A stretch of 64,000 nt of DNA. It comes from Allosphingosinicella indica. GTDB lineage: Bacteria; Pseudomonadota; Alphaproteobacteria; Sphingomonadales; Sphingomonadaceae. Under the pieces are notes generated by a model. It searched no databases. It was not told the origin of the DNA and worked only from the letters and a program-made list of their open reading frames with translations. The stretch is taken from contig NZ_LT840185.1 of the NCBI RefSeq assembly GCF_900177405.1, positions 2,657,501 through 2,721,500 on the forward strand. Reading direction: 5' to 3'. Within the stretch, counting starts at the first letter, position 1; each line of letters opens with the position of its first letter. A program made the position numbers and the translations under genes. Positions 44,226-49,833 of this stretch are shown here, in pieces.

Positions 44226-44495
44226 TCAGTGCAGCAGATTCTCGCGATGCGCCTCGGCCATCTTCACTTCCTGCCAGAAGACGTCGAGGAGACCGCTGAG
44301 CTCGGCTATATGCGGCACGTCGTGGCGGCGGACGCAGCGATACTTCTTAGTGAGCATCGCGACTTCCGCGAGGATCAGCCGAGCCACCTCGCCATGGGCA
44401 TCGAGCGAGGGGATGGCGTCATAGGCCTCGAAGGTCTCGGCGCGTTCGAGCGCATCCTTGTTGGCCACATCGAGTGTCTTGGTTTCGGGGGTCAT
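44226..44495 (-). CDS. Conserved-looking small soluble protein, unknown
   Basis: An 89-residue, charged, mostly helical protein (VANKDALERAETFEAYDAIPSLDAHGEVARLILAEVAML) ending AEAHRENLLH. No family recognised. Its start overlaps the stop of the upstream gene by 4 bases (ATGA), so the two form an operon. Codon use matches the neighbours, so it is likely real. Confidence 0.65.
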   Translation of the reverse strand: MTPETKTLDVANKDALERAETFEAYDAIPSLDAHGEVARLILAEVAMLTKKYRCVRRHDVPHIAELSGLLDVFWQEVKMAEAHRENLLH

Positions 44496-45049
44496 GGCAG
44501 CAGCGGGTCCAAAAGCCCGAGCGCGAAAGCGATCGCGCCCGCGGCGAGGGTGAGAAGGAGGAGCGCGAAGAGGAAGCGAGGAACCCAGGACGAGAGCTCG
44601 GGTTCGGCCTGTTCCAGCGGGCGCACCGGCTCGGCGGCGATCACCTGATCGCGGCCAAGCTCGAGCGGCGGTTCCAAGTCCGCTCCGGTGCGCAGCGCGG
44701 GGCCGCTCTTGCCCCGCGCCAGAACGAGGCGATCGGCGACGACCGCCTTCTTTTGCTCGTCGACCCAGCGGCTCATTCGTCCGGAGTCGGCGGGCGGGGT
44801 CGCGGGGATCGATGCGACGAAATGACTGAGCTCGCGATCGAGGCCGACGAGGTCGTCCATCGCCGCCATCGTCTCGCGGCGGTCCCGCTTCTCCATCGCG
44901 AGCTGGAGCCGCATCACGTTCATGTTGCTGGCGCGCAGCAAGGTCATGCCGCGCGCGAGATCGGCGCCGTTGACCGCGCGTATCTGACTGCCCGGCGCCG
45001 AAAATGGATCGCGCCGCTGAAGCCCCGCCTGTTCCTGAACCATCGTCAT
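44492..45049 (-). CDS. Unknown protein with C-terminal membrane anchor
   Basis: A 185-residue protein. The N-terminal two thirds are soluble with helical stretches (GMTLLRASNMNVMRLQLAMEKRDRRETMAAMDDLVGLDRELSHF), then a variable linker, then one membrane helix at about 161-182 (FLFALLLLTLAAGAIAFALGLL) near the C-terminus, i.e. a tail anchor. No family recognised. Coupled to the 89-residue gene downstream. It starts 281 bases from the divergent Nudix-DUF47 gene. Confidence 0.65.
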   Translation of the reverse strand: MTMVQEQAGLQRRDPFSAPGSQIRAVNGADLARGMTLLRASNMNVMRLQLAMEKRDRRETMAAMDDLVGLDRELSHFVASIPATPPADSGRMSRWVDEQKKAVVADRLVLARGKSGPALRTGADLEPPLELGRDQVIAAEPVRPLEQAEPELSSWVPRFLFALLLLTLAAGAIAFALGLLDPLLP

Positions 45050-45305: not shown

Positions 45306-45330
45306 ACGCTTCTTTCCGGAGAGCCGCATC

Positions 45331-46449
45331 GTGATCCGCCAATATGGCGCGCTGGCCTATGAAGTGGCCGAAGGCGCCGAACCGCGCTTCCTGCTGACGA
45401 CATCGCGGACGACGCGCCGCTGGATCATTCCTCGCGGCAATCCGATCCCCGGTCTCTCGCCCGCCCAATCGGCGGCCGAGGAGGCATTCGAGGAAGCTGG
45501 CATCACCGGACTCGTCTCGCCCGAGGAGATCGGCGCCTACAGATATGAGAAGAAACGGAAGAACGGGACGAGCGATACCGCGAACGTCCACGTCTTCGGC
45601 TTGCGTATCACCATCCAAAGCGGCCGATTTCCCGAGCGGCAGGAGCGAGAGACGCGCTGGTTCACCCGCGAGGAAGCGATCGCGGCCGTGGAGGAACCCG
45701 GGCTGAAGGACATCATCCGCACCTTCAACCCGGCGCCGCTGGCAGCGGGCCGCGTCCCGGTGGCGATGCTTTCCGCGCCGCCGCCTCCGCCTGCCCGCTT
45801 CCCGCTGCTCAAGTGGTTTCGGCGGGTGATGCCGCGCGAGGACGGCTTCTTCGAGATGTTCGCGGCGCACGCCACGACGATCGTGGGCGGCGCGGATGCG
45901 ATGACGGCGATGCTGGGCGGTCAGACGAGTATCGAGGAGGGTAGCAAGCTCATCTTCGCTTATGAGGATCAGGCTGACGACGTCACGCGCGACGTGCTCC
46001 ACGCGGTGCGCCGCAGCTTCATCACTCCGTTCGACCGCAGCGCGATCACGAAGCTCATCAACGCGATGGACGACACGATCGACGAGATGCAGCAGACCGC
46101 CAAGGCGATCACACTATACGAGGTGACGAGCTTCGAGCCGCCGATGTGCGAGATGGCGGCGCTCGCCGGCCAAGCCGCGCGGCTCGTGACCGAAGCGATC
46201 CCGCTGCTCCGTTCGGTCGGCAAGAACGGCGGGCGGCTCGATCGCATCACCGGCAACATTGTCCATCTCGAAGGCGTCGGCGACGATCTCCACGCCAAGG
46301 GTCTGAAGACCGCCTTCCAGCAATATGGCGAGACGCGGCCGATGGCCTATTTCATCCAGCGCGAGATCTATAGCCATCTGGAGCGCGTGCTCGACGGGTT
46401 CGAGGACGTCGCGAACGAGATCCAGGGCATCGTGATCGATCACGCCTGA
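45331..46449 (+). CDS. Nudix hydrolase - DUF47 (PhoU-like) fusion protein
   Basis: One 372-residue frame. Residues 1-133 are a Nudix domain of the diphosphoinositol-polyphosphate/diadenosine-polyphosphate type (RQYGALAYEV, RRWIIPRGNPIPG). The Nudix box runs Gly36 to Ile58 and keeps metal-binding Glu51, Glu54 and Glu55, but the usual Arg before them is Glu50. A Pro/Ala linker (134-155) leads to a complete DUF47 domain (about 158-372: KWFRRVMPREDGFFEMFAAHA, DDTIDEMQQTAKAI, HLEGVGDDLHAKGLK, EDVANEIQGIVIDHA). DUF47 proteins partner PiT phosphate transporters, and a pit gene follows after 11 bases. The start is GTG at 45331 (GGAGAG upstream). Suggested role: coupling a phosphate-status metabolite to phosphate uptake. 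Confidence 0.88.
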   Translation: MIRQYGALAYEVAEGAEPRFLLTTSRTTRRWIIPRGNPIPGLSPAQSAAEEAFEEAGITGLVSPEEIGAYRYEKKRKNGTSDTANVHVFGLRITIQSGRFPERQERETRWFTREEAIAAVEEPGLKDIIRTFNPAPLAAGRVPVAMLSAPPPPPARFPLLKWFRRVMPREDGFFEMFAAHATTIVGGADAMTAMLGGQTSIEEGSKLIFAYEDQADDVTRDVLHAVRRSFITPFDRSAITKLINAMDDTIDEMQQTAKAITLYEVTSFEPPMCEMAALAGQAARLVTEAIPLLRSVGKNGGRLDRITGNIVHLEGVGDDLHAKGLKTAFQQYGETRPMAYFIQREIYSHLERVLDGFEDVANEIQGIVIDHA

Positions 46450-46460
46450 GCCGCCGCGCG

Positions 46461-47465
46461 ATGGACCCGACACTCGCCTTTCCCCTGCTCGTCGCGCTGA
46501 TCGGCGTCGCGCTGCTGTTCGATTTTCTGAACGGTCTGCACGACGCCGCCAATTCGATCGCGACCGTGGTCTCCACCCGCGTGCTACGGCCGCACATCGC
46601 GGTCGCCTGGGCCGCCTTCTTCAACTTCATCGCTTTCCTGTTCTTCGGCCTTCATGTCGCCGAGACCGTGGGCAAGGGGATCGTCGATGCGAGCGTGATC
46701 GACCCGTCGGTGATCTTCGGTGCGCTGATGGGGGCGATAAGCTGGAACATCATCACCTGGGCGGCGGGCATCCCATCGTCGAGCAGCCACGCGCTTATCG
46801 GCGGGCTGCTCGGCGCCGGCGTCGCCAAGGCAGGCCTGTCGGCGGTGATCTGGAACGGCGTCACCAAGACCACGGTCGCGATCTTCCTCTCCCCGACGCT
46901 TGGGCTGCTGCTCGCATTACTGCTCGTCCTGGCGAGCTCGTGGGTTTTTCGGCGGGTGAATGCGCCGTTCGCCGACCGCATCTTCCGCAAGCTGCAGCTC
47001 GTCTCGGCGGCGCTATACTCGCTCGGCCACGGCGGCAACGATGCGCAGAAGACAATGGGAATCATCGCGGTGCTGCTCTTCTCGCAGGGGCTGCTCGGCG
47101 ACACCTTCTACGTGCCCTTCTGGGTGGTGATCTCGGCGCAGGCGGCGATGGGCCTCGGCACCTTGTTCGGCGGCTGGCGGATCGTCCACACGATGGGATC
47201 GAAAATCACCCGGCTGACCCCGCACCAGGGCTTCTGCGCCGAAAGCGGCGGCGCGATCATGCTCTTTTCGGCAACCTGGCTCGGCATTCCGGTCTCGACC
47301 ACACACACGATCACCGGCTGCATCGTCGGCGTCGGCGCGGCGCGGCGCGCATCGGCGGTGCGGTGGGGCGTCGCCGGCAATATCGTCATCGCCTGGGTGG
47401 TGACGCTGCCTTCGGCGGCGCTGATCGGCGCGGGTTTCTACATGCTGACGACGCTCGTCGCCTGA
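46461..47465 (+). CDS. Low-affinity inorganic phosphate transporter, PiT family
   Basis: A 334-residue membrane protein with about ten helices and the two inverted PiT repeats: FDFLNGLHDAANSIATVVSTRVL near the N-terminus and LYSLGHGGNDAQKTMGIIAVLLF in the second half (the GxNDAxN-type signatures), plus IPSSSSHALIGGLLGAG and IPVSTTHTITGCIVGVG. It symports phosphate with protons or as metal-phosphate. It lies 11 bases after the Nudix-DUF47 gene, so the two are one transcript. Ends immediately against the convergent hydrolase gene. Confidence 0.94.
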   Translation: MDPTLAFPLLVALIGVALLFDFLNGLHDAANSIATVVSTRVLRPHIAVAWAAFFNFIAFLFFGLHVAETVGKGIVDASVIDPSVIFGALMGAISWNIITWAAGIPSSSSHALIGGLLGAGVAKAGLSAVIWNGVTKTTVAIFLSPTLGLLLALLLVLASSWVFRRVNAPFADRIFRKLQLVSAALYSLGHGGNDAQKTMGIIAVLLFSQGLLGDTFYVPFWVVISAQAAMGLGTLFGGWRIVHTMGSKITRLTPHQGFCAESGGAIMLFSATWLGIPVSTTHTITGCIVGVGAARRASAVRWGVAGNIVIAWVVTLPSAALIGAGFYMLTTLVA

Positions 47466-48372: not shown

Positions 48373-49833
48373 ATGCGCGCCACCCCGCAACCATATCGCC
48401 CCGATCCCGCCATCCTCGAACTGGGCGACGCCTTTTACGATCGCGTCGAAGCAGCGGATTTTCCGCAGACGATCCTCCGCTTCCGCAATCAGCGCCATGC
48501 GGGGACGGTGGGACTCGGCGAGCTGACGGACGACGAGTGGCTCCAGCATTTTGGGCGGTTTGCGGCGCTGCCAGACAATCTGCCGGAGCCGCTGGCGCTT
48601 CGCTACCACGGCCATCAGTTCCGTGTGTACAACCCGGATATCGGCGACGGACGCGGCTTTCTGTTCGCACAGCTCCGCGACGCGCGGGATCGGCTGCTCG
48701 ATCTCGGCACCAAGGGATCGGGCCAGACGCCCTATAGCCGTTTCGGCGACGGGCGGCTGACGCTGAAGGGCGGCGTGCGCGAAGTGCTGGCGACCGAGAT
48801 GCTCGAGGCGCTCGGCGTCGAGACCAGCAAGAGCTTCTCGCTCATCGATACGGGCGAAGCGCTAGAGCGGGGTGACGAGCCCTCGCCCACCCGCTCGGCG
48901 GTGCTCGTCCGGCTGCAGCACAGCCACATCCGCATCGGCACCTTCCAGCGGCTTGCGATGCTCGACCAGCCGGAGGAGATGCGGCGGCTGACGGACTGGT
49001 GCCTGAAGCAATATTATCTCGACCGTCATCGCGAGGAGAAAAGCGACGAAGCAATCCAGGCGTCGGAGGCCGGAGCTGGATTGCTTCGCTCCGCTCGCAA
49101 TGACGGAGAGCCTGCGGCGCGATTGCTGGGCCACGTCGTCAATGCGGCGGCGCGGCTTGCCGCTTCCTATATCGCGGCGGGCTTCGTCCACGGCGTGCTC
49201 AACAGCGACAATATCGCGATCACCGCGGAAAGCTTCGACTATGGGCCGTGGCGCTTCACGCCCTTCTGGGACGGCCATTTCACCGCCGCCTATTTCGATC
49301 ACAACGGCCTCTACAGCTTCGGCCGCCAGCCCGAGGCAATCCACTGGGACGTCGCCCAACTGGCCCGCGCGCTGACGGCGATCGCCGATCCGGAAACGCT
49401 CCAGCCGCTGCTCGACGGATTTCCCGCAGCATTTCAGACGGCGTTGCGGGACACAGTGTTCGCGCGGCTCGGCATCGCGCCGCGGAACGAGGAAGCCGAC
49501 GAGGCACTGCTTCTCGCCATCCAGACCGCGCTGGCCCGCCGCACCGTCGAGATCGACCGTTTCTTCTTCGACTGGCGCGGCGGCGCGTTGCGGCGGAGCG
49601 AGCCGACGTATGACGACGAGGCCTTCGCGGATTTACGCGCCGCGATCGGCGACTACACGTCCACCGGTTCGCTCGATCATGCTTATTGGTCCGACGCGGC
49701 GCCCTGCTCGATGCATATCGAGGAGGTGGAGACGATCTGGTCTCGGATCGACGAGGCGGACGACTGGTCGGCGTTCGAGGCCAAGATCGCGGGGATCCGG
49801 CGGATGGGCGACGCCCTGGCCGGCCGCGCGTGA
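48373..49833 (+). CDS. selO: Protein adenylyltransferase SelO (YdiU family), with in-frame repeat insert
   Basis: A 486-residue pseudokinase-fold AMPylator. Marks: RYHGHQFRVYNPDIGDGRGFLFAQL, LDLGTKGSGQTPYSRFGDGRLTLKGGVREVLATEML, the catalytic FVHGVLNSDN with Asp279, and SFDYGPWRFTPFWD with the second metal Asp. Known members AMPylate redox proteins. Residues about 218-245 (RHREEKSDEAIQAS ... LLRSARNDGE) interrupt the conserved KQYY ... LLGHVVNAAARLAASYIAAGF region and come from a genomic palindrome (see 49024). Without it Asp279 would be near 252, close to the usual spacing. The C-terminus (DDWSAFEAKIAGIRRMGDAL) lacks the Cys-containing end some members have. Confidence 0.93.
   Translation: MRATPQPYRPDPAILELGDAFYDRVEAADFPQTILRFRNQRHAGTVGLGELTDDEWLQHFGRFAALPDNLPEPLALRYHGHQFRVYNPDIGDGRGFLFAQLRDARDRLLDLGTKGSGQTPYSRFGDGRLTLKGGVREVLATEMLEALGVETSKSFSLIDTGEALERGDEPSPTRSAVLVRLQHSHIRIGTFQRLAMLDQPEEMRRLTDWCLKQYYLDRHREEKSDEAIQASEAGAGLLRSARNDGEPAARLLGHVVNAAARLAASYIAAGFVHGVLNSDNIAITAESFDYGPWRFTPFWDGHFTAAYFDHNGLYSFGRQPEAIHWDVAQLARALTAIADPETLQPLLDGFPAAFQTALRDTVFARLGIAPRNEEADEALLLAIQTALARRTVEIDRFFFDWRGGALRRSEPTYDDEAFADLRAAIGDYTSTGSLDHAYWSDAAPCSMHIEEVETIWSRIDEADDWSAFEAKIAGIRRMGDALAGRA
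49024..49105. repeat. Palindromic repeat inserted in frame in selO
   Basis: About 82 bases with inverted arms: CGTCATCGCGAGGAGAAAAG followed by CGACGAAGCAATCCAG, and CTGGATTGCTTCGCTCCGC followed by TCGCAATGACG. This is the common genomic repeat of the form CGTCATTGCGAGC-GAAGCAATCCAG. It is read through without a stop inside selO. It differs in family from the mutL and rnr inserts. Confidence 0.87.

Follow-up and report, generated by a model that had tools for sequence, protein, structure and literature searches.

How PiT importers and their partner protein PitR sense internal phosphate is, to our knowledge, an open question. In Allosphingosinicella indica, the reading frame directly upstream of the importer gene pit encodes PitR (DUF47, PF01865) joined to an N-terminal Nudix domain, which raises the question of what a Nudix protein might do at a phosphate importer. 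PitR works with PiT in the phosphate homeostasis of S. aureus and almost always adjoins pitA, as reported in a 2026 survey (PMC13170248). The A. indica fusion resembles these proteins in its complete PF01865 domain and in the pit gene directly downstream, but it differs in its extra Nudix domain: the survey took in proteins with a single PF01865 domain only, and the word 'nudix' is absent from its text. Our search of the open-licence PMC literature found no report of a Nudix-DUF47 fusion or of a Nudix-PiT linkage, and no 'nudix' was found in the accessible text of a Caulobacter phosphate paper (PMC11208175). One candidate literature match for Nudix plus DUF47 was rejected, as it actually concerned DUF4743.

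The Nudix-PitR fusion gene and its locus

The window, i.e. the whole stretch of 64,000 nucleotides of A. indica DNA analyzed here, carries the fusion gene at 45331..46449 (+), an open reading frame of 372 codons with a GTG start and no internal stop, which encodes a product of 372 aa. GGAGAG at 45318..45323 (+), read by eye 7 nt upstream of the start, is its likely Shine-Dalgarno sequence. The N-terminal Nudix domain (45334..45729, +) was recognized by profile match, Pfam, PDB sequence matches and Foldseek; the Pfam NUDIX match (PF00293) covers residues 16-130 with E 9e-7 and 29.4 bits against a cut-off of 21.1. It is followed by a Pro/Ala-rich linker (residues 138-157; 45742..45801, +), predicted to be disordered (pLDDT <50), and by an all-helical DUF47/PitR domain at 45805..46446 (+), identified by Pfam, structure model and Foldseek. 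The PhoU_div/DUF47 match (PF01865; residues 164-369, 135 bits, E 3e-39) spans profile positions 4-213 of 214, and the DUF47 half is thus complete. Its natural N-terminus is likewise present: in the alignment, LLKWFRRVMPREDGFF falls on MLKWFQAVMPKEDAFF, where an unfused gene from the same genus starts. The stop of the fusion gene ends at 46449 and the ATG of pit lies at 46461, which leaves a gap of 11 bp; pit itself (46461..47465, +) encodes an inorganic phosphate transporter (PHO4/PiT, Pfam E 4e-95). The architecture given in the preliminary description, an uninterrupted frame with a Nudix domain, a linker and a whole DUF47 protein followed closely by pit, was thus confirmed throughout.

Modeled in full with AlphaFold2 (pLDDT 91, pTM 0.60), the protein shows two confident domains connected by the disordered linker. 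Foldseek matched the C-terminal half to the DUF47 structure BT4638 of Bacteroides (3l39; TM 0.94 by target length), which differs from the fusion in that its listed chain contains no Nudix domain. The host genome is a single contig of 2.81 Mb, listed as 100% complete. In profile searches it yielded one PhoU_div match, one PHO4 match, which is the pit gene described above, and one Nudix match to our Nudix profile A1 at E<=1e-12. The genome also encodes a separate two-domain PhoU and ppk1, and the profile search gave no match to PPK2. Named relatives at 48-49% identity, such as Sphingomonas sp. QA11 and Hephaestia mangrovi, indicate the family Sphingomonadaceae.

Two small open reading frames divergent from the fusion gene (44226-45049, -) had no Pfam match. 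Further downstream, a palindromic element (49026-49108) with perfect 13-nt arms (49047-49059 and 49076-49088) lies in frame inside a SelO-family open reading frame (48373-49833) and contains a motif that we take to be a dispersed alphaproteobacterial repeat.

Fold and active site of the Nudix domain

Yeast DDP1 and human DIPP1 (NUDT3) are Nudix hydrolases of inositol pyrophosphates (PP-InsP), ApnA and polyphosphate (polyP). Human DIPP1 is the best PDB sequence match of the fused Nudix domain (E 4e-6), while an Ap4A hydrolase matches more weakly (E 7e-4). DIPP1 and DDP1 also rank among the best matches by fold: Foldseek gave TM values by target of 0.76 for DIPP1 (2q9p) and 0.58-0.71 for DDP1, which among these matches has also been solved with polyP15. 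These results agree with the earlier assignment of the domain to the DIPP/ApnA/polyP-hydrolase group. The substrate class is left undecided by the fold, because the Ap4A hydrolase of Aquifex (TM 0.77) is about as close as DIPP1. DDP1 and DIPP1 differ from the fusion in being single-domain, eukaryotic proteins of about 20-24% identity in the Foldseek alignments, and the fused proteins do not have the Arg of the Nudix box.

The full Nudix box follows the motif GX5EX7REUXEEXGU. In the window protein, the box (residues 36-58; 45436..45504, +) departs from it twice, with Leu in place of the first Glu and Glu50 in place of the Arg; the metal-binding Glu51, Glu54 and Glu55 are present, as first described. 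We examined these positions in an alignment of 136 Nudix rows, of which 36 are fused (34 distinct; one genome appears twice, as L004 and L033). Ser25, Glu51, Glu54, Glu55, Lys74 and Arg106 are kept in all 36 fused rows, and Arg106 is invariant across the entire alignment (136/136). Arg26 occurs in 34/36 fused rows, and position 35 is Lys in 35/36, the window protein having Arg there. The box Arg is found in 0/36 fused rows, in 2/12 rows beside a DUF47-pit pair, in 14/30 beside PiT (two of these 30 rows, L088 and L199, do have a weak or broken DUF47), in 13/38 unlinked rows and in 0/20 rows from outside the class, where Lys takes its place. The suggestion that Glu50 marks a slow enzyme or a sensor is therefore weak: Arg is indeed missing from every fused row, but position 50 varies across the whole family while the three metal-binding Glu are invariant in the fused proteins. 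Glu50 as proof of inactivity is thereby ruled out.

The metal-binding Glu and several phosphate-contact positions of DDP1 and DIPP1 align with the fused domain. By sequence alignment and motif order, Ser25, Lys/Arg35 and Arg106 would correspond to phosphate contacts described in PMC8064635, according to which DDP1 cuts polyP, ApnA and PP-InsP via shared phosphate sites. The same source reports that in DDP1 two catalytic Glu make up a triad together with the box Arg, and loss of this Arg could therefore slow the fused enzyme. Judged by these residues, our default assumption is that the Nudix part is an active hydrolase, perhaps a slowed one.

Conservation of the fusion and the Nudix family beside PiT

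The preliminary description had proposed a search for other proteins containing both domains and an inspection of their neighbors. In a sample of 296 genomes from the order, 81 matched, and the full-length fusion was present in 54 (host included), none of them with an internal stop; a sequencing or assembly artifact can thus be dismissed. Another 19 genomes encode DUF47 without an adjoining Nudix, one of which (G112) has a Nudix relative elsewhere. The Nudix part is therefore dispensable, because these 19 family genomes retain DUF47-pit without it. The remaining matches comprise three genomes with Nudix only, four with weak DUF47 matches, and one (G173) in which Nudix and DUF47 are separate neighboring genes. 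G173, which belongs to the same genus as the window, has a true tandem: the Nudix gene ends in its own stop and is followed by a Shine-Dalgarno sequence, an ATG and DUF47, and then by pit. In all 35 fused loci read, a same-strand PiT gene follows within 298 nt of the DUF47 domain, and the linker measures 22-29 residues in 35/35 fused genes.

In a quick tree built from 74 DUF47 rows, the 37 fused rows all fall into a single 57-row clade (SH-aLRT 92), whose first branch consists of the window and the tandem case G173. This topology fits either a single fusion that was later lost several times and split once, or two fusions, one in the window lineage and one in the rest. Confinement of the fusion to a single family is ruled out, since three genomes of family group f46 carry it; their fused DUF47 branches within that of the sphingomonads, a position compatible with transfer.

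The association of this Nudix family with PiT extends well beyond the fusion. When 385 genomes of the class were searched with profile A1, built from 20 Nudix domains, 58 of them gave a total of 65 Nudix places, and we read the surroundings of 61 of these places (60 plus the window; four were left out). The nearest PiT or DUF47 frame lies less than 500 bp away in 36 of these 61 loci: four are fused, six adjoin a DUF47-pit pair with the Nudix gene upstream, downstream or divergent, and 26 adjoin PiT with no DUF47 in view. Among these 26 PiT frames, 25 encode 493-566 aa and one is stop-broken. One further locus has PiT/DUF47 at a distance of 2.5 kb, and 24 show no PiT in view, so partnership with PiT is not universal in the family. 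In these 385 genomes, a search for PiT gave at least 146 places. Among the PiT matches listed, coordinates place 37/65 Nudix places within 1.5 kb of PiT, against about 0.07 expected from random placement in 3.9-Mb genomes; 27 of these 37 have no nearby PhoU_div match, Nudix adjoins 27 of the 89 PiT places that lack DUF47, and the linked cases, oriented in many ways, come from about 20 family groups. The Nudix family is thus recurrently tied to PiT in Alphaproteobacteria, mostly without DUF47, and this tie is stronger than the preliminary description had claimed from the fusion, as unfused relatives neighbor PiT as well.

A comparable situation may be that of SCO1846, which PMC13170248 places beside some pitA genes that lack PitR. 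The unfused Nudix likewise neighbors PiT where PitR is missing, but SCO1846 is described there as an uncharacterized membrane protein and not as a Nudix-type enzyme. Outside the class, none of 20 Nudix loci from 19 of the 44 matching genomes had PiT or DUF47 at E<=1e-4, some of the contigs being short. Clustering of the neighbors of 38 PiT-less Nudix loci revealed local synteny, in which nothing phosphate-related was recognized by eye, and no Nudix is annotated within 5 kb of the pit locus on pSymB of S. meliloti (one place in the record).

Some individual loci deviate from these arrangements. One of the 37 PiT-adjoining places (G599; L201:1886-3112), located at the end of a contig of 3.1 kb, joins half a Nudix domain to PiT in one frame and may be a deletion fusion or an assembly fault. 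A plasmid of Lichenicola cladoniae (L199:5890-8030) carries transposase genes and, downstream of them, nudix followed by DUF47 and pit, whose frames are both broken; this looks like a decaying copy. In L197:5804-6835 (-), a family Nudix is fused behind a histidine-phosphatase domain; five loci (L179-L183) have a similar N-terminal extension, which in L182 is below the Pfam threshold.

We also asked where translation of DUF47 might begin in the 34 fused genes in which it aligns from its first column. In 32 of them (31 ATG, one GTG), a start codon is kept in frame at the position where unfused relatives start. Predicted anti-Shine-Dalgarno pairing at this junction has a median of -6.5 kcal/mol, the same value as for 20 starts of unfused relatives, compared to -2.65 kcal/mol for 308 other in-frame ATGs of the same fused genes (p 5e-11, which overstates independence because the fused genes are related), and the scan peaks at the junction. 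Pairing of <=-4.5 kcal/mol is found in 29/34 genes; there is no pairing signal in L022 (-0.7 kcal/mol) or in the window (+1.4 kcal/mol), where CTG (45805..45807, +) stands in place of the ancestral start codon. An earlier test for four short Shine-Dalgarno words, which turned up at the junction in 18/34 genes vs 12.6 by shuffling, gave only a slight excess; pairing energy, calculated afterwards, is the stronger test. Because start codon and ribosome-binding signal are both kept, most fused relatives probably make free PitR in addition to the fusion, whereas the window gene, having lost both, probably makes the fused form only. Neither this internal start and its loss in the window nor the PiT linkage without DUF47 had been part of the preliminary description.

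Possible roles of the Nudix domain at the importer

Our preferred reading, to which we give a probability of roughly 0.45, sees in the Nudix domain an enzyme accessory to PiT, which PitR tethers and which breaks down a polyphosphate-like signal at the importer. A DIPP-like, PiT-associated phosphohydrolase attached to the N-terminus of PitR would be held at the cytoplasmic side of PiT, where it would bind and cut a signal with a polyphosphate chain whose level goes up under ample phosphate, most likely polyP made by PPK1, or else ApnA. Cleavage of the signal would then locally set the PitR-dependent control of PiT, and in most relatives free PitR from the internal start would probably dilute the fused form. 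The disordered linker in the structure model is more in keeping with a tethered enzyme than with a rigid switch. The reading draws further on the conserved fusion, the kept metal-binding and putative phosphate-clamp positions, the recurrent tie of the family to PiT and the internal start; against it count the missing box Arg, the fold that separates DIPPs no better from Ap4A hydrolases, the Nudix loci with no PiT in view and the family genomes that do without the Nudix part. The functional proposal of the preliminary description is partly retained: the conserved fusion, the DIPP-like Nudix domain and the tie to PiT support it, but its argument from Glu50 is weak and inositol pyrophosphates as ligand are not supported.

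PolyP is favored as the substrate by the co-occurrence of the fusion with ppk1, which is itself not phylogenetically independent. The gene is present in 54/54 fused genomes (the host and 53 others) and in the tandem genome G173, compared to 11 of the 19 genomes with DUF47 but no adjoining Nudix (Fisher 5e-6); among genomes of <=3.3 Mb the ratio is 19/19 vs 4/12 (p 6e-5). For PPK2 there is no clear difference (48/55 vs 13/19, p 0.08). On the tree, ppk1 and Nudix provide only three independent pairs, with which no test can reach significance. With relatedness taken into account, the link thus carries no statistical weight, and it may stem from shared ancestry or genome reduction. CHAD domains bind polyP. 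In one locus outside the class (L182:1-12501), a family Nudix lies in a run with PhoU+APH kinase-like, RimK-like ATP-grasp, histidine phosphatase, metallophosphatase, AAA and CHAD proteins, possibly a polyphosphate-linked operon.

The same tethered accessory enzyme could instead act on Ap4A-Ap6A or another nucleotide alarm signal and report the energy state rather than stored phosphate. Ap4A hydrolases, which match the fold about as well as DIPP1 does and also appear among the PDB sequence matches, speak for this version; we nevertheless hold it to be rather unlikely, as the DIPPs are the stronger sequence matches and the co-occurrence with ppk1 would require another cause. Far less probable still is an inositol-pyrophosphate-like ligand, a bacterial counterpart of eukaryotic PP-InsP/SPX control, which the preliminary description had brought into play. 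The resemblance to DIPPs, i.e. that the best PDB relatives hydrolyze PP-InsP, is the sole pointer in this direction, but these enzymes cut polyP and ApnA as well, and the authors of a review of the Nudix clan state that they know of no evidence that bacteria or archaea use PP-InsP5 (PMC5389931).

Two further explanations are, in our view, both improbable. The Nudix domain could be a non-catalytic or very slow sensor whose ligand binding alone alters PitR; this would agree with the missing box Arg in all fused rows and with the triad that this Arg and two catalytic Glu form in DDP1 (PMC8064635), but the fused proteins all retain Glu51/54/55, a flexible linker would be a poor path for a binding signal, and position 50 varies in unlinked relatives too. 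Alternatively, a housekeeping Nudix gene upstream of pitR-pit may have lost its stop codon and the resulting fusion been tolerated without any coupling. The tandem order within the same genus, the 19 genomes with no Nudix part beside DUF47 and the internal start, which lets relatives make free PitR regardless of Nudix, are all compatible with such an origin. A chance run-on, however, leaves unexplained that about 20 family groups have this Nudix beside PiT, variously oriented and without DUF47. The frame is furthermore open in 54/54 fused genomes.

Taken further, the preferred reading of a tethered, signal-degrading accessory enzyme would describe a previously unreported alphaproteobacterial module of PiT control, in which a DIPP-like Nudix reads and erases a polyP signal at the importer, whether PitR is present or not; a nested sphingomonad gene would give both Nudix-PitR and free PitR, the window gene would be locked in the fused form, and the whole would be the bacterial analogue of how eukaryotes control phosphate uptake through DIPP/SPX. 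We put this wider picture forward tentatively and consider it doubtful as a whole. A Nudix domain that is fused to PitR and also stands beside PiT genes without PitR hints at a chemical signal. If this signal is polyP, import would be coupled to the cell's phosphate store, with a bearing on phosphate toxicity and phosphorus removal. The nested start would offer a natural way to set the dose of the fusion protein. The Nudix domain may thus be an overlooked part of phosphate-uptake control in A. indica and its relatives.
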